A stretch of 57,915 nucleotides of DNA from a virus, in the IMG/VR virus record IMGVR_UViG_3300005264_000019, positions 1-57,915 of that record. One strand, written 5' to 3'. The notes under the pieces were generated by a model. The model was not told the DNA's origin. It saw only the letters and a list, made by a program, of their open reading frames with translations, and did not search any database. Position numbers and translations under genes: made by a program. Positions 17,682-54,551 of the stretch are shown piece after piece. Positions within the stretch are counted from its first letter, which is position 1, and each line of letters starts with the position of its first letter.

Positions 17682-17970
17682 TTACTACTACCTCTGCCAA
17701 TCCGAATGCTGCTTGGAAATACCCAACGTTTGAAGTATATTCGTAAGGCCCATAATTAAACCGCTGTGCAATCTTCTCAGATCTTTGAGCCATTGTATGG
17801 TCCTGTTTTTCACGAGTACATTCTTTCATACGTCCCGTCTTCCGATTTATTCTGGCAAGGATACATGGGTGATCCCCTTCCAGAATTATACGGTGCATAT
17901 CAAACTGATTCTTAATTACTGTCAACATGGCCTCAGAACGAGTTACCATCTCCGCATTTGTTATTCTCAT
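17659..17970 (-). CDS. Hypothetical protein
   Basis: 103 residues; a basic segment RINRKTGRMKECTREKQDH in the middle and a hydrophobic/acidic C-terminus. Start follows TTTGGAGG closely. Unassigned. Confidence 0.6.
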   Translation of the reverse strand: MRITNAEMVTRSEAMLTVIKNQFDMHRIILEGDHPCILARINRKTGRMKECTREKQDHTMAQRSEKIAQRFNYGPYEYTSNVGYFQAAFGLAEVVVNEETPEY

Positions 17971-17979
17971 AATGCCTCC

Positions 17980-18014
17980 AAAAAAATAACCTCATAAGGG
18001 ATATAATATCCCTT
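17980..18014 (-). terminator. Hairpin terminator upstream of 17970 gene
   Basis: Minus-strand AAGGGATAT/ATATCCCTT palindrome followed after nine bases by seven T. The segment between it and 18100 (AT-rich, with a direct AAGTACTT duplication) holds no gene. Confidence 0.55.
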
Positions 18015-18100
18015 ACAAGGCTCTTTGTCACTGAATAAAGTACTTTAGAAGTACTTTTAAAGTCCATATGAATTACTTCTGATTTCAAATATTCGACTTT

Positions 18101-18739
18101 TCAAATAACTTTCTTAAATGAAAAGCCACGTTTAGTAGTCGCACCAGTACTTGAATGTTTTCCTACAGTTAATTCAGATACCCCGGCAATGTCTGAAGCT
18201 CCTGGCATATCTGTAATAACAATCTGTTTTCCATTTTGCCATACTTCATACCGCGTTCTTGTAGGGGCTACCCTTAAACGGGCTACAAAACTCCTGGGAA
18301 TTTCATCCAGAGGAACATGTACGAAAGAATACCCTTGTTTACATACACCTCCATGGGATACACGGTATTGTAAAGTCCCATAAGGAACCTCCAATTTATC
18401 ACAGGCTTCTTTCATATACATCCGACCAACAAATTCAACTCCATCTTTATAACAATCAACCATCCTGGCCTGCCCTTTTGCATACGGGTTCTGTTCTTCT
18501 GCGGGAAGATTTTTATCATCCTCCCGCATAGCCTTTGCTCCACTCCAGGAAGTTCCAGGTTTTGATTCTATTTGAGATACTTTGTTAATTCGGATATGCA
18601 AGGGAATATGCCTTAAATCATATACCGCCATAGTGGGTTTTACAGCAATAGCCCTCTCTACAGTAGCTGTGGTCCCTAGAACCCCCTTTCCAGGGGTTAA
18701 TGTACGCAAACTCCCACTACCCAAAGATAACCTACCCAA
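18101..18739 (-). CDS. Predicted DNA-binding protein with two NUMOD-like repeats
   Basis: 212 residues. Two C-terminal units share a helix-turn-helix-like pattern that ends in G-[YF]-S-F: one around CDKLEVPYGTLQYRVSHG ending GYSF, the other around SDIAGVSELTVGKHSS ending GFSF. This resembles the modular NUMOD1-type DNA-binding repeats of homing endonucleases, but no HNH or GIY-YIG domain is seen. Start is a TTG with AGGAG eight bases upstream, overlapping the preceding stop. Confidence 0.6.
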   Translation of the reverse strand: MGRLSLGSGSLRTLTPGKGVLGTTATVERAIAVKPTMAVYDLRHIPLHIRINKVSQIESKPGTSWSGAKAMREDDKNLPAEEQNPYAKGQARMVDCYKDGVEFVGRMYMKEACDKLEVPYGTLQYRVSHGGVCKQGYSFVHVPLDEIPRSFVARLRVAPTRTRYEVWQNGKQIVITDMPGASDIAGVSELTVGKHSSTGATTKRGFSFKKVI

Positions 18740-18962: not shown

Positions 18963-20573
18963 CTATATTTCTGTACAATCGCTTAATAAGTGTACATTAC
19001 TTCCAAGCAATTGTGCATTTGATTTGAAATATTTCTGTGCCTTTGCGATTTCCAAATTCAACTCTACTGCAGCTTCTCTGGGAGTTCGCAACCATCCTTT
19101 CAATCTACCGGCTTCTACATTTAACTTCTGCATAAAGTCCATATCAAACTTAAAATGCATATTACCATTCTTATGGGCCTTCACTTCCATAAATACCTTA
19201 TCATCATGCTTGAATATTTGCTTCTTCCCGGATACCCATTCCAACTTTGTAGAATCACCAACCACATTGAATCCCAGGTTAATCCCTACAGCCTTCACGT
19301 CGCTGAGTAGAGTATGCACGTCCTGATACAATCCCCCCGGATACTGATAAGAATCCCATGAACTACCTCCAATGGCCCTGAATCCTTCATTCACTATCCG
19401 GTAGTCTAATTTGTAATGGGATGCCCTAGCTTTGAAATTCCAGCAAGTTTCATACCTGCTCGGTTTCTCTACAAGGTGGGAATTAGAAACATAATTGATT
19501 ATATTTTCGTACTTTGTAAATTCATCGTATAAATCCAGAACTTGCTGATCAAAATATTTATTAGCATTCTTTACAGCCCAAATTACAACAGAATAAATAT
19601 TGGATAATGTAAAATCCACTGACGTATTTTCCCGGAGCTTTGTGAGTAACTTCTCTCTACTCTTTGAAGTTAAACGCCGAATTATTGCATCCAGTCTATT
19701 AAAAAGTTCTTGCCAGTATATATTTTTCAAACCAACAATCTTTTCCCGTAAACCTTTCTTCAATCCTTCTACATTAACTCCTAGCTCCTTCAGAATAATG
19801 TTATCCAAAACCTCTACCGCTTTATAGTTATTCAGAAGTATTTCAAAATCCTGGCTATAATTCTGCGTCAGATTCTTTATGATATCCTTATCAACCAATG
19901 CTTTTAATCGAGAGGATGCGGATGCCTGTTGTGTATATCCAGGAACTGGCTGCTTATCTGCCTTTATTTTGAAATGAGTATCAAACCATAAATCAAACGG
20001 ATCCACTTTTAATTGATTTGCCCGATAATTCATACTTCCTAAAGAAATACGAAGTATATCTACGTTTGCTCGGGCTTTCCGGAACTCTGAATCCATAAAA
20101 GAGAAATTCCCCAAATTAAATACAGTACCATCCCGCTTCTGAATCGCTGAGGATATTCCCTGATGGCTTTTCCACCTATCAGGGATGATAAGGTATATAC
20201 AAGGACAATTAGCTTCCAGGATAAGCTTTTCTGCCCATTCAGCATATTCAGTATATGGCGGGTTACAAAATATAGTATCCATTGTCTTATCTACAAATGA
20301 TTGCTGATGGAATTCTGTACCCACAACGAATACATCTGCTGGCATCGCATTTATTAACAATTGTGACTTTTCTATTGCAAACTTCTCATAATGCTTATCT
20401 GGATCCAGTTCCTGCAAGAGAGTGAAGAAACTTCCGTTCCCAGCTCCCACGTCCATTATCTTTGTATACCGAGGATCCATATTACTATGTATAGTCTGAA
20501 CCATTTGCCGAGTAGTAGGATACCACTCATAATCCTGCCCTGCTGCTTTAACATCTACCAGAAGATCATTCAT
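18963..20573 (-). CDS. N6-adenine-type DNA methyltransferase, DUF4942-type C-terminus
   Basis: About 536 residues. The N-terminal domain has the SAM-binding motif MDVGAGNGSFF and catalytic IFCNPPYTEY (NPPY, gamma-type amino-methyltransferase). The C-terminal part ends with NGNMHFKFDMDFMQKLN, the pattern of the DUF4942 domain found fused to phage and prophage methylases. No restriction partner is nearby, so it likely protects phage DNA or marks it for packaging. Start ATG 20573 overlaps the preceding TGA (ATGA); the ATG twelve bases earlier is less suited. Confidence 0.82.
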   Translation of the reverse strand: MNDLLVDVKAAGQDYEWYPTTRQMVQTIHSNMDPRYTKIMDVGAGNGSFFTLLQELDPDKHYEKFAIEKSQLLINAMPADVFVVGTEFHQQSFVDKTMDTIFCNPPYTEYAEWAEKLILEANCPCIYLIIPDRWKSHQGISSAIQKRDGTVFNLGNFSFMDSEFRKARANVDILRISLGSMNYRANQLKVDPFDLWFDTHFKIKADKQPVPGYTQQASASSRLKALVDKDIIKNLTQNYSQDFEILLNNYKAVEVLDNIILKELGVNVEGLKKGLREKIVGLKNIYWQELFNRLDAIIRRLTSKSREKLLTKLRENTSVDFTLSNIYSVVIWAVKNANKYFDQQVLDLYDEFTKYENIINYVSNSHLVEKPSRYETCWNFKARASHYKLDYRIVNEGFRAIGGSSWDSYQYPGGLYQDVHTLLSDVKAVGINLGFNVVGDSTKLEWVSGKKQIFKHDDKVFMEVKAHKNGNMHFKFDMDFMQKLNVEAGRLKGWLRTPREAAVELNLEIAKAQKYFKSNAQLLGSNVHLLSDCTEI

Positions 20574-20836
20574 AATGTATCCCATTCTTCAGTACTGGAA
20601 TTCCAATATGCTATATCAGTACAACCATCGTTCGGTTTCCCAAAATTATCCAAGGGTTCAAACCCCTCTTCAGTATCCGTATACCGAAGATCGGCAACAC
20701 CTTCATAATATACCTGACCATCGGCATCACTTAATTGAAACTGTTGGTGATAATCTAATGCAGGAATTCCATCACGGCTATAAATACCCACATGTTCACC
20801 AGCTGCAATAAAATCTTTCGTAATAACCCATTTCAT
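20570..20836 (-). CDS. Hypothetical protein, first gene after early promoter 1
   Basis: 88 residues, acidic, beta-type (KWVITKDFIAAGEHVGIYS, later YEGVADLRYTDTEEGF). It directly follows an early promoter repeat with an AAGGGG ribosome site and is translationally coupled to the methyltransferase by ATGA. Unassigned. Confidence 0.65.
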   Translation of the reverse strand: MKWVITKDFIAAGEHVGIYSRDGIPALDYHQQFQLSDADGQVYYEGVADLRYTDTEEGFEPLDNFGKPNDGCTDIAYWNSSTEEWDTL

Positions 20837-25931: not shown

Positions 25932-26666
25932 TTATACTGCCCGATCTACCTTTACCCAGGCGCCATATTTGTTTCTAAGGTACTGTCTGGTGTGCCTTAT
26001 TCGTTCTGTGGAGCGGTATTGAGTCTGACCCCCGTCTCCTGCATTTATGGGAATAAGAGGGTCCATAGCGATACGTTGATCCCGCCAGACGATTCCTCTT
26101 TTGAACTGTTCCATATATACAACGTCCACGTCCTCTGCGAGCATAATATTTGTATCGAAACGGAGACGGTGGTCCAGGATGCACATAGCACCTCCCAGGA
26201 TAGAAGTGTTAATACTTATAGGCTTCATGCGGTTGGTAAACTTAGGGCCTTTTGAATAATCCAGGGAAAATACTTTTGCTTGGAATTCCATACATAGTTC
26301 AGTATCTTCCAAAAGCACATTCATAAAATCCTGCGGAGATATTGTTACAAACTTCGGTCCAAATACCCACATGAATTTCCTTACATCATCATCCATCGTA
26401 AACATAGCTGTGTAATCTTCTGTAAACAAGTTTTCCAGGATCCAATTCAACTTTCTCTGTTTACCCAAAATGCTATCAGGAATCCCATGTATGATTGCTT
26501 CCGGAACCGCCTTTTCATAAGATTCCACTTCTGATTCAAATACCACTACATGTATAGGAAAATACTTCGAATATTCTAATACTACAGATTTCCGTATTAC
26601 ATCCTCTCTTCCCATACTGGGGACCACAAATAGAATATCCCGCAAGACTAATTCATTTTTCATCAT
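25932..26666 (-). CDS. GT-A-fold glycosyltransferase-like protein (paralogue 2)
   Basis: About 244 residues. N-terminal VVPSMGREDVIRKS (nucleotide-binding turn of TET-associated phage glycosyltransferases), an acidic triad FTMDDDV (DxD-type metal site), and later LAEDVDVVYMEQ. Closely resembles the next upstream gene in order and motifs, so the two are paralogues. Likely substrates are modified bases in phage DNA; inferred from the family type. Start ATG 26666 follows GGGAG by five bases. Confidence 0.7.
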   Translation of the reverse strand: MMKNELVLRDILFVVPSMGREDVIRKSVVLEYSKYFPIHVVVFESEVESYEKAVPEAIIHGIPDSILGKQRKLNWILENLFTEDYTAMFTMDDDVRKFMWVFGPKFVTISPQDFMNVLLEDTELCMEFQAKVFSLDYSKGPKFTNRMKPISINTSILGGAMCILDHRLRFDTNIMLAEDVDVVYMEQFKRGIVWRDQRIAMDPLIPINAGDGGQTQYRSTERIRHTRQYLRNKYGAWVKVDRAV

Positions 26667-27384
26667 ATACACTCCCTGCCGATATATATCTTTTTACATA
26701 TGGCCCGAATTTACTTATCAGATATCGTAATCCCCGCTGCAAACTGGCTGCGGTACGATGTTTGTTTATTCCTCCCTGCACAGTTCCCATCTTCCCGCCC
26801 AACTGCTCCATCAAATACCGGCCATCCGATACACAAAGACCATGGTGAAAGAGACACCACATAGATAATTCAAAATCATCCAAAACATCCATTTCAGGAT
26901 CAAACCTTATTTTAGGATCTGAAAATACAATCAGACAATTCACTACCCTGCCTTTCATATGAATAGGAGCCGGACGGCGTACCCTGTTTATTCCCCCAGG
27001 GAATGCACGAAATGAAAAGAAAGGAACCCCGATTACTGCCGCCAGTTCCATATCCTCACGAATAGCCTGCATAACATCTTCAGGAGTCAATTTTACTGAC
27101 TTTCGCCATAACCCCCACAATACATTTTTTATATCATCATCCATCATCATAAGCTCATTGGATTCAGGCCACAGATTTTCCAAAGCCCAATTACGAGTAC
27201 GGGGTAAATTCTTTTCAGGACATTCCACAATATGAACTTTAGGATGTTCCATATATTTCTTATATTCGAGAGCTTCCCCAGGGGTTACAACTACATACAT
27301 ATCCTCCAGGAAAGGCAATAATCGCCATGCCATTGTTTTAGGAATAAATTCCGGCCTCCCCATACTCGGAATTACCAGCCTCAT
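26653..27384 (-). CDS. GT-A-fold glycosyltransferase-like protein (paralogue 1)
   Basis: 243 residues. VIPSMGRPEFIPKTM at the N-terminus, MMMDDDIKN acidic metal site, GGINRVRRPAPIHMKGR and a late DFELSMW. The pattern matches TAGT-like phage glycosyltransferases and its downstream neighbour. Both follow a ParB-like gene, a combination reported for DNA hypermodification loci. Activity and sugar are unknown. Confidence 0.7.
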   Translation of the reverse strand: MRLVIPSMGRPEFIPKTMAWRLLPFLEDMYVVVTPGEALEYKKYMEHPKVHIVECPEKNLPRTRNWALENLWPESNELMMMDDDIKNVLWGLWRKSVKLTPEDVMQAIREDMELAAVIGVPFFSFRAFPGGINRVRRPAPIHMKGRVVNCLIVFSDPKIRFDPEMDVLDDFELSMWCLFHHGLCVSDGRYLMEQLGGKMGTVQGGINKHRTAASLQRGLRYLISKFGPYVKRYISAGSVYDEK

Positions 27385-51652: not shown

Positions 51653-51718
51653 AGAATTCCTCCAATAATTTGATTTACTAATATACTGATTTATTAAGAC
51701 TGATGACGGAAATAAAAT

Positions 51719-51757
51719 AAAAAAATCCCCTTCCTGCTAATTAAAGCTGAAAGGGGA
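51719..51757 (-). terminator. Intrinsic terminator of the structured RNA locus
   Basis: Minus-strand TCCCCTTTC with GGAAGGGGA, followed by seven T. Ends the tRNA/structured RNA transcript before the recombination operon. Confidence 0.8.
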
Positions 51758-51828
51758 CTTAGGGATTATATAACTGAGGCCGCAACACCCAATCCGGATT
51801 ATCTTATCATGCACCCGGTCGCATTCCC

Positions 51829-51846
51829 CTTCTGATCGATCAGAAG
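51829..51846. repeat. Perfect 18-bp palindrome
   Basis: CTTCTGATCGATCAGAAG reads the same on both strands. Within the structured RNA region, so a stem in RNA or a protein-binding site in DNA. Confidence 0.6.
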
Positions 51847-51952
51847 TACAAAATGCTTAATCAACCCCGATGGCCTTACTTCGGGACAAATATCCTTTAA
51901 ATACTTGTCGGTATTCTTACCGACTGGCAGATGCTACCAGCAAATTGATCTA

Positions 51953-52030
51953 TGGGACTGGAAGGAATTGAACCCCCGACCGCCACTCTGTTGAATTACA
52001 AAGCCAGCTCTACGACTGAGCTACAGTCCC
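51953..52030 (-). tRNA. tRNA with aberrant anticodon arm (Thr-TGT-like)
   Basis: Minus strand gives a 7-bp acceptor (GGGACTG with CAGTCCC), D arm GCTC-loop-GAGC and T arm GGGGG-TTCAATT-CCTTC, so the L-shaped body is clear. The anticodon region is not standard: TTTGTAA recalls tRNA-Thr(TGT), but stem bases do not pair around it; a CTTTG/CAGAG stem would give an 8-base loop and a long variable arm. CCA is not encoded. Real tRNA body, identity uncertain. Confidence 0.6.
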
Positions 52031-52081
52031 GTATATGGTTTTCAGGAACGGCACGGGGAAGCATCGTTCCTAGGGATAACC

Positions 52082-52110
52082 AAAAACCCTCCCCGGGCAT
52101 CACCCCAGGG
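52082..52110 (-). terminator. Strong GC hairpin followed by T5
   Basis: CCCTGGGG...CCCGGGGAGGG type stem with TTTTTGG downstream, between the two tRNA-like units. Possibly a terminator or an internal RNA domain. Confidence 0.55.
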
Positions 52111-52118
52111 ATCAAAAG

Positions 52119-52481
52119 TTACCTGTGCTTCCAGAAGGAAGCGAAAGGATATCCAGTACAAGGAATCGAACCTTGCCTATAATTCATCACTGAATTCCAA
52201 CTGAATAAAAAAGAGCCAGTACCCGTGGCTCTTTCATAAAATATAATAATACAAACTATATCAAAACTGTCAAGGACCCATTTTCCTACGTTTCGATAGG
52301 ATACCGTTTGATCCAGAATTACATCAGATCTTATAGACTTCTTTTCCCGCCACTTGTGGATAAGGATCCAAATACCGACACATGGTAAAACAATGGCTTG
52401 CGTGATAAGAAAATCTACCGACGGAATATTTGCAGCGATTCCAGCCGTTGAAATGATTCCAATAATAGCCCAGATCGTCAT
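52119..52481 (-). CDS. Small membrane protein (3' part doubtful)
   Basis: ORF of 120 residues. The N-terminal half has two hydrophobic segments (WAIIGIISTAGIAANIPSV and AIVLPCVGIWILIH) followed by a basic turn, a plausible small membrane protein. The C-terminal half overlaps a promoter, a hairpin and a tRNA-like element, so the real gene may end earlier or the ORF be partly accidental. Confidence 0.35.
   Translation of the reverse strand: MTIWAIIGIISTAGIAANIPSVDFLITQAIVLPCVGIWILIHKWREKKSIRSDVILDQTVSYRNVGKWVLDSFDIVCIIIFYERATGTGSFLFSWNSVMNYRQGSIPCTGYPFASFWKHR
52152..52205 (-). ncRNA. tRNA-like element lacking a D arm
   Basis: 54 nt. A 6-bp acceptor (TTCAGT with ACTGGA), a 5-bp AATTC/GAATT stem with a 6-base AGTGAT loop, and a perfect T arm (CAAGG-TTCGATT-CCTTG). 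No D arm and no CCA. Either a decayed tRNA or an RNA mimicking one; it lies directly after the promoter. Confidence 0.4.
52206..52234 (-). terminator. Hairpin with U-run just after the 52.27-kb promoter
   Basis: AAAGAGCCA/TGGCTCTTT stem followed by T6 on the minus strand, only about 10 bases after the -10 box. Could be an attenuator or a 5' protective stem for the RNA. Confidence 0.6.
52246..52273 (-). promoter_or_regulatory. Strong sigma70-like promoter for the structured RNA
   Basis: TTGACA (52273-52268), 16-bp spacer, TATTAT (52251-52246). Closest downstream features are the hairpin and the tRNA-like units. Confidence 0.65.
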
Positions 52482-52581: not shown

Positions 52582-54048
52582 TTAAAAAATCTTTGCATAT
52601 TCATCGGGACTAAAATACCAATCTTGATTAGTACCCCTAGCGTAATCCCGAATAAACCCGAGGGACCACTTACTGCCACCTTTCACAATATCCAGGGAAA
52701 TTTCCCCCGCCCCTTTATCCCACAGGAATTTCAAATATTCATCAATCCAAAATACAGCGTCATTCAAAACAGGCCCCCATAAACTACGAAGGTCTTCTTC
52801 AGAAATACTATTCTTTCTCGCAGCATCCTGTACCCGTGGTTGCATCCATAACCACCACTGGGTAAATGTATCCATTATTTCTGTAGCAGGGCGTCCTGCG
52901 AACATATCGGAGGAATCCTGCAACAATTGCTTTGCATCATCGGATAAATTTATTTCCGCAGTTTGATAACTACGGTCCCCTGTAAGATATTTCTCCAAAC
53001 ATTCCACAAACCGACTTTTCTTTGTTTTAGGATGAAACACCCAAGTATTAAAATTAGTAGTCAATGACTTTTTATCTGCTGGCCAATTACCTTCTACAAA
53101 ATAATCCACGTACACTTCCAAGGCACCCTCAATATATCCAGTATCCAAAACTACTCCGGAAGTAAGCAACTTATAGGCATGAGGAAACTTTGATTTTGCA
53201 TCTGATTTTTGAATCTGATAATTATTAAAGAATTCCCCCCGAAGCATAATCTCAACGAAATGAACCGCATTCTGTAATGTTTTAGTCAGGTCCGGATATA
53301 TACTGGGGACCCCTGGAACATCCATTTCAAACTGTTTTGGAAATTTCATCCGGGACATATTCTTAAAACGATCATTCATCCGGAAAATAAACGGAGAATA
53401 CTCCTGCCAGCCGCGGCGGGTAACTATCTCCTGTTTATTTGATTCAGATGTATTAGATTGTTTTAAATTTAAAGTGGATCTTCTACTGGTATGACGGGTT
53501 TCACCAGAAACCCTTTGAGATACTTTAGTATCTCTCTTACTCTCTGTACTTGTAGTCTCTGTATTTGTATCACTATTTTTCGTGATAGGGGTATCACTAT
53601 TTTTCGTGATAGGGTCCCCCGAAAGTGAAAAAATCTGATCAATATTAGGCTCTATAAAAAGTACATTATTTGCTATTCTGAATGTATCTCCTATAGGATA
53701 CTCTACTGTCCGGAATTCTAACGTAATCATTTTTAAATCTTCCAAGAAATGAAAAGCATCGGATATTTGCCGTTTTGTCAGCCCGTATAACTCCGTGAAT
53801 GACTGATAACTACGTTGTAACTTATCTGCTTTAAAACGTTTCCGGATTTCAATTACATGCCCAGTACTTTCACTACGAATAATTTCTGGACGATACCAAT
53901 AAATTACATCTGCCAATAAAACTATTGCAACTAAATTTGGTTTCCCTTTTTCATTTACAATAGTTTTAAACCATGTATGATCAATAATATTTCCATTTAA
54001 TTTTAAGTGTTCTAATCGATCAACAGCTTGTGTGGTATTCCTTTTCAT
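52582..54048 (-). CDS. Replication initiator-like winged-helix protein
   Basis: 488 residues. N-terminal winged-helix region (QSFTELYGLTKRQISDAFHF, LEFRTVEYPIGDTF), a Ser/Thr/Arg-rich linker encoding two 8-residue repeats (PITKNSDT twice), and a C-terminal helical domain. Layout resembles phage replication initiators with an internal origin, such as lambda O. It is alone on its transcript, behind a structured leader with U-run. Confidence 0.6.
   Translation of the reverse strand: MKRNTTQAVDRLEHLKLNGNIIDHTWFKTIVNEKGKPNLVAIVLLADVIYWYRPEIIRSESTGHVIEIRKRFKADKLQRSYQSFTELYGLTKRQISDAFHFLEDLKMITLEFRTVEYPIGDTFRIANNVLFIEPNIDQIFSLSGDPITKNSDTPITKNSDTNTETTSTESKRDTKVSQRVSGETRHTSRRSTLNLKQSNTSESNKQEIVTRRGWQEYSPFIFRMNDRFKNMSRMKFPKQFEMDVPGVPSIYPDLTKTLQNAVHFVEIMLRGEFFNNYQIQKSDAKSKFPHAYKLLTSGVVLDTGYIEGALEVYVDYFVEGNWPADKKSLTTNFNTWVFHPKTKKSRFVECLEKYLTGDRSYQTAEINLSDDAKQLLQDSSDMFAGRPATEIMDTFTQWWLWMQPRVQDAARKNSISEEDLRSLWGPVLNDAVFWIDEYLKFLWDKGAGEISLDIVKGGSKWSLGFIRDYARGTNQDWYFSPDEYAKIF
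53567..53614 (-). repeat. Two tandem 24-bp iteron-like repeats inside the initiator gene
   Basis: Plus strand GTATCACTATTTTTCGTGATAGGG is repeated exactly in tandem at 53567-53590 and 53591-53614. Each unit contains the inverted TATCAC/GTGATA arms and equals eight codons, so the reading frame is kept. Candidate initiator binding sites or origin. Confidence 0.7.
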
Positions 54049-54063
54049 ATTTTCTCCTTAAAC

Positions 54064-54157
54064 GAAAAAAGACCAATTATCGGGCAAAGGAAGTTGACAG
54101 CTTCCGCATCTTCCCGCCTCAAAGCTAAACAGGAAAATACACCCGATAAATGGTCTT
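54064..54157 (-). promoter_or_regulatory. Structured leader/terminator before the initiator gene
   Basis: Minus strand: a 15-bp closing stem (AAGACCA and TTATCGGG with CCCGATAA and TGGTCTT, one T-T mismatch) encloses a TTTCCTG/CGGGAA arm and a GGAAG/CTTCC hairpin, then six T. It resembles a terminator built on a multi-branched fold; it may end the upstream transcript and act as an attenuator for the initiator gene. Confidence 0.55.
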
Positions 54158-54260
54158 AATAACGCTTTGATTTATTCCTAGATGTCATTCCAGGATAGGC
54201 AAACTGCCTATGTTTAAAATAATATACCGGCCCTTATTTGTAAAGACCAATATATTTCCA

Positions 54261-54551
54261 TTATGCCTTCTTACATTTAGAACAACATTCCTGTTGCTGT
54301 TTATGCCGCCAAATATCCAACTGATTATCTCTAGTTCCGCAATAAATAACATCTTCCAAATGTCCACATTTTCGTAAAATTACGAACGTTCCATATAGTG
54401 AATTATCTGCCATTGAATGACTCCTTATGAAAAAAAAATATTTATTATCCAGATATTCTGAAAGTCCCCGAGTAACCACCGGAGTGAAATTCCAATCCCG
54501 TTGCTTCTTACGGGGACGATCTATTGCAAGTAATTCAATAATAGTTTTCAT
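54261..54551 (-). CDS. Small Cys-containing protein
   Basis: About 96 residues; ends HKQQQECCSKCKKA with a Cys cluster and a HLEDVIYCGTRDN segment. ATG 54551 overlaps the upstream stop as ATGA. A zinc-ribbon-like tail; otherwise unassigned. Confidence 0.6.
   Translation of the reverse strand: MKTIIELLAIDRPRKKQRDWNFTPVVTRGLSEYLDNKYFFFIRSHSMADNSLYGTFVILRKCGHLEDVIYCGTRDNQLDIWRHKQQQECCSKCKKA

Follow-up and report, generated by a model that had tools for sequence, protein, structure and literature searches.

What kind of RNA, if any, is produced from a non-coding stretch of about 500 bases that lies between a promoter (52273–52246) and a terminator (51760–51723) on the minus strand of a phage genome? 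The stretch was found in IMGVR_UViG_3300005264_000019, a linear virus record of 57.9 kb, which was analysed over its whole length of 57,915 nt (the window) and in which the minus strand carries practically all genes. On the upstream side, the locus is flanked by a small open frame (52481–52119) and, further upstream, by a replication-initiation-like gene (52582–54048). On the other side lies a block encoding p162, p66, SSB, UvsX, RuvC, SbcC/D, an ATPase and a helicase. According to the original prediction, positions 51719–52273, bounded by a promoter and a terminator, form a structured locus that is non-coding and combines a deviant tRNA with a tRNA-like element. These coordinates are correct, the strand is minus, both bounding signals are present, and the description is supported by a match to the tRNA model RF00005, by the folds and by codon usage. 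In minus-strand order, the locus contains the following parts:

52246–52273, minus strand: promoter-like site TTGACA-16-TATTAT, 11/12 consensus, the sole such near-consensus sigma-70 match on both strands of the 57.9-kb window
52205–52235, minus strand: 10-bp hairpin with a U run behind it; z −4.9, mean pair probability 0.94
52150–52207, minus strand: D-armless tRNA-like unit with an 8-bp acceptor, a 6-bp arm and a 6-bp T arm with the loop UUCGAUU
52036–52148, minus strand: spacer RNA with three hairpins (52142–52127, 52111–52090, 52082–52036); z −2.9 for 52145–52031, main-stem pair probabilities 0.67–1.00
51953–52030, minus strand: deviant tRNA, from the RF00005 match (42.5 bits) and the fold
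51859–51950, minus strand: five-way junction RNA of 92 nt with a 7-bp closing stem and four hairpins (8, 5, 10 and 5 bp); pair probabilities 0.92–0.97, z −3.3 for 51952–51862
51821–51856, minus strand: hairpin tipped by the perfect palindrome CTTCTGATCGATCAGAAG; z −2.1, pair probability 0.92–0.96
51773–51818, minus strand: two weaker hairpins ahead of the terminator, from pair probabilities
51716–51760, minus strand: intrinsic terminator, a 12+3 bp stem followed by U7; z −5.6 for the hairpin 51760–51723

The hairpin at 52205–52235 starts a few bases past the expected transcript start and is either a 5' protective hairpin of the locus RNA or the terminator of the upstream gene. Positions 51815–51765 alone were no more stable than shuffled sequences.

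The folding energy of the locus lies beyond all 100 of 100 shuffles, with z −4.9 on the minus strand and −4.2 on the plus strand. Among the 117 tiles of the window, the locus has the lowest raw energy and the lowest mean z over five tiles (600 nt), and its single-tile z ranks 8 of 117. Since single tiles elsewhere in the phage score equally well or better, global stability alone is weak evidence; the folding is unusual relative to shuffles and only partly so relative to the rest of the phage. Measured against shuffles, the strongest fold among the 490-nt tiles of the window is that of 17909–18398 (z −5.4). In addition, two 120-nt tiles fold strongly (z −3.7 and −3.3) in the gap at 54049–54315, upstream of the replication-initiation-like gene; this gap is possibly regulatory or an origin.

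The locus is non-coding. In each of the six frames, codon-usage scores stay near zero or negative, versus a median of 0.22 for the phage genes, and 3–10 stops occur per frame. No signal of a conserved open frame running through the region, the finding that the original prediction had named as its refutation, was obtained from codon usage and stops in the six frames. The open frame 52481–52119, which overlaps the D-armless unit, has a negative codon-usage score in both of its parts and is therefore a doubtful gene.

The deviant tRNA (52030–51953) scored 42.5 bits with RF00005 against a gathering score of 29; ARAGORN called no tRNA on the stretch. Its acceptor is perfectly paired over 7 bp, and the 4-bp D stem and the 5-bp T arm with the loop UUCAAUU are normal. 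The anticodon arm consists of a 7-bp stem and a 6-nt loop (GCUUUGU AAUUCA ACAGAGU) in place of the 5-bp stem, 7-nt loop and U33 of a tRNA, the D loop AGUCGUA has CG in place of G18G19, and CCA is not encoded. Neither the anticodon arm nor the D loop fits a decoding tRNA. The 5' half of this tRNA (52030–52007) is identical to Balneolota tRNA-Phe genes minus one G, which gives a weak hint to the host group. A search of viral contigs for the exact 28-nt tRNA half gave no match. One viral contig (L233), with a tRNA 5' half one base off, carries an ordinary tRNA-Met and was set aside.

The second unit (52207–52150) lacks a D arm and has 24 nt between the acceptor and the T arm. It is of the predicted kind and measures 58 nt, not 54. 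RF00005 does not match it. Its chance level was estimated by scanning for T arms of 5 bp with a TTCRANN loop that are followed, after at most one base, by an acceptor strand pairing with an upstream strand. Phage strands totalling 4.46 Mb yielded 44 units, of which many are real tRNAs, and shuffled DNA 1.27. With the gap limited to 28 nt, the count was 10, against an expectation of 0.47 from the same 4.46 Mb after shuffling; among the 10, a few are weak, are duplicates or belong to an ordinary tRNA. For a short-gap T arm with a 7-bp acceptor, the chance expectation in 490 nt is about 5e-5; 5 of 20,000 shuffles of the locus contained any such T-arm/acceptor unit, and the chance of two tRNA-grade units inside 260 nt is about 1e-4 or less. 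Elsewhere, D-armless units occur between genes (contigs L022 and L046) or within a tRNA cluster (L081); sequence alignment of the units fails to line up their acceptor strands. Acceptor/T-arm units of 46–54 nt occupy tight intergenic gaps at L046:3415–3461, L111:3464–3517 and L022:5115–5160, and two of these overlap the preceding stop codon.

Among known systems, the locus closely resembles in kind, as far as the sequence allows such a comparison, the clusters of tRNAs and stable RNAs of phages T5 and T4, in miniature. This is a descriptive class that has no curated model. Like its members, the window locus is a non-coding block with its own putative promoter beside or among tRNA genes, and it includes a T arm and acceptor with an abnormal middle (52207–52150). 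In the T5 annotation, RNA1 and RNA2 are "tRNA-like stable RNA with unknown functions" and RNA3 is a "putative tRNA-like RNA"; more stable RNAs lie between the tRNAs, and promoters are annotated among these genes. The T5 clusters compared were tRNA-His, RNAIII, RNAI and RNA1; RNAIV and RNA2; and RNA3. The same kind of scan revealed a T arm and acceptor in RNA1 and RNA2, with gaps of 53 and 89 nt. RNA1 adjoins the multi-branched RNAI, RNAIII and tRNA-His, and this block of 439 nt folds with z −3.5, against −4.9 for the window locus. T5 has blocks of about 440 nt that mix tRNA, T-arm/acceptor RNA with an abnormal middle and stem-closed multi-branched RNAs of about 100 nt. In contrast to the locus, with its single deviant tRNA and 24-nt gap, T5 carries a full tRNA set and longer gaps, and no sequence similarity between the locus and the T5 clusters was found. 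In T4, the species 1 and 2 RNAs (RNAC and RNAD) are stable RNAs beside tRNA genes and are real transcripts whose roles are unknown (PMC9697503, PMC3014915). In the same scan, the rnaC product (species 1) has a T arm and acceptor at its end, with 60 nt as the gap between them. Unlike the window locus, species 1 and 2 (139 and 119 nt) adjoin eight normal tRNAs.

All these characteristics make it rather probable that we are dealing with a stable-RNA operon of the kind known from phages T5 and T4, in which tRNA-like modules serve as punctuation and the products do not decode. Judging from the sites in the sequence, one precursor RNA would start near 52240 and end near 51720, and the D-armless minihelix and the deviant tRNA would alternate in it with compact multi-branched RNAs. 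In tRNAs and in minimal substrates, the stack of T arm and acceptor is the main part recognized by bacterial RNase P and the 3'-trimming enzymes, and for this reason the modules are most likely punctuation. Host tRNA-processing enzymes would cut them out and free the RNAs between them. Because a normal anticodon loop is absent, and the D arm too in one unit, the tRNA-like products are probably non-decoding. They could be stable ligands of tRNA-binding proteins or mere stabilizing ends, as must be assumed for T5 RNA1 and RNA2 and for T4 RNAC and RNAD. The reading as a stable-RNA operon is drawn from the two T-arm/acceptor units within 260 nt, the sole near-consensus promoter at the head and the strong terminator at the tail, together with the missing coding signal, the fold (z −4.9), the parallels with T4 rnaC and T5 RNA1/RNA2 and the units beside uvsX in three distant relatives (L111, L106 and L127). 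Against it stand the location of the D-armless unit inside the open frame 52481–52119, albeit with non-coding codon usage, and the odd position of a terminator-like hairpin right behind the promoter.

The search for relatives bears on the same reading. No DNA relatives were found in phage and plasmid records, and no close protein relatives of p162, UvsX or the helicase in viral contigs. Relatives at roughly 30–50% were reached by alignments alone. The one of UvsX led to phages at about 25–50% protein identity that keep parts of the order p162-p66-SSB-UvsX-SbcC/D-ATPase; the locus RNA aligned in none of these distant relatives. That the collections searched yielded no alignable relative of the locus, and that eight relatives gave zero RNA-family matches at gathering score in the region around uvsX, counts against a stable-RNA operon. 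RF00005 was over the cut-off in 12 of 50 relatives, and in those compared, L127 excepted, the match was far from uvsX.

In L111, L106 and L127, a tRNA-like RNA lies between uvsX and a common downstream gene. The L111 unit is a D-armless RNA of 54 nt that folds into an acceptor, an arm and a T arm, and the L106 unit has a 9-bp acceptor stem with UUCAAAA in the T-loop position (z −4.6). In L127, the non-coding interval measures 429 nt (z −4.1) and includes two Rfam tRNA matches, the first scoring 40.2 bits and the second, at 24.3 bits, falling short of the gathering score. In the second tRNA-like RNA (L127:9152–9309), the full 7-bp acceptor ACGGGTG/CACCCGT closes over a 127-nt gap, the 5-bp anticodon arm (loop CAGTTAA) looks normal, a T arm is present and about 100 nt replace the D arm. 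The units of the window, of these contigs and of L022, L046 and L081 appear alike in kind, a likeness from which a common origin of all of them does not follow. After the first unit, the three contigs have in common the non-coding motif GGGGTnnCCAGTT (L106:2790–3115, L111:3510–3600, L127:8985–9040), possibly a small new RNA family; the motif was not seen in the window locus. A viral scan with the gene that follows the RNA in L111, L106 and L127 added one further, uninformative locus, and the gaps upstream of p162 in L109 and L158 showed no special structure.

The main rival explanation is a decaying tRNA cluster, in which once-ordinary tRNA genes drift without selection and the hairpins are remnants. 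The change of G18 to C in the D loop, the deformed anticodon arm, the second unit without a D arm and the tRNA 5' half one G short of Balneolota tRNA-Phe are what such drift could leave behind. Several observations speak against decay, which we consider unlikely: the acceptor and T arms of both units pair completely, the fold of the region is better than that of shuffles, a strong promoter and terminator have been kept, and other phages repeatedly carry similar D-armless units (10 with a short gap versus 0.47 expected, a few of the 10 being weak, duplicated or normal-tRNA parts).

Kinship with GOLLD and ROOL, which the original prediction had proposed, was not borne out. Of the covariance models that it named, tRNA matched (42.5 bits), whereas GOLLD and ROOL did not, neither at gathering score nor down to E = 10; besides RF00005, no other Rfam family was found at the locus. 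The likeness consists of a phage-borne, structured RNA near or containing tRNA. Both giant RNAs also occur close to tRNA islands, and GOLLD linkers at times hold tRNAs (PMC12286853); about 490 nt with many hairpins and a tRNA inside could suggest a giant ornate, cage-like RNA of a new family. However, the locus is predicted to fold as a chain of independent short modules; a long-range closing helix is limited to one 4-bp helix of probability 0.31. We regard a giant RNA as very unlikely, and T5 and T4, neither of which had been named, are the closer precedent. A tmRNA was found neither by Rfam nor by ARAGORN: the D-armless unit shares with tmRNA the T arm and acceptor without a normal D arm, but its 24 nt between acceptor and T arm are too little for a tag frame.

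About as improbable is a tRNA that decodes or suppresses with an unusual anticodon loop and is accompanied by an unrelated leader. The RF00005 score is above gathering, and if the anticodon arm were read with a loop of 8 nt, UCA would follow a U. Nevertheless, the GG of the D loop is lost, a 7-nt loop is absent, and the genes are read normally, standard stop codons closing the long open frames. Finally, an attP-type host tRNA fragment is most improbable: integration into tRNA genes is a common source of tRNA gene fragments (PMC9897764), but no tyrosine integrase was found in the window, and the 5' acceptor strand, dispensable for an att fragment, is retained in both units.

The T4 and T5 stable RNAs have been known for decades and their function is still missing. 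A compact counterpart in an unrelated phage, together with D-armless units recurring in several phage contigs, suggests a general phage feature. It also provides a small testable set in which the T-arm/acceptor stack is common and the rest is variable or missing, pointing to processing enzymes or tRNA-binding proteins rather than to decoding. A bolder and rather doubtful proposal is that minimal D-armless acceptor/T-arm units (46–58 nt) are widespread intergenic processing signals of phages, a mitochondria-like "tRNA punctuation" by host RNase P. If this were true, L046, L111 and L022 would be simple cases directly after, or over, the stop codon, and the window locus an elaborate one.

Elsewhere in the window, a TET-associated glycosyltransferase (PF20691) and a DUF4942/methyltransferase protein are encoded at 26653–27384 and 18963–20585, and these predicted proteins suggest that the phage may have modified DNA bases.
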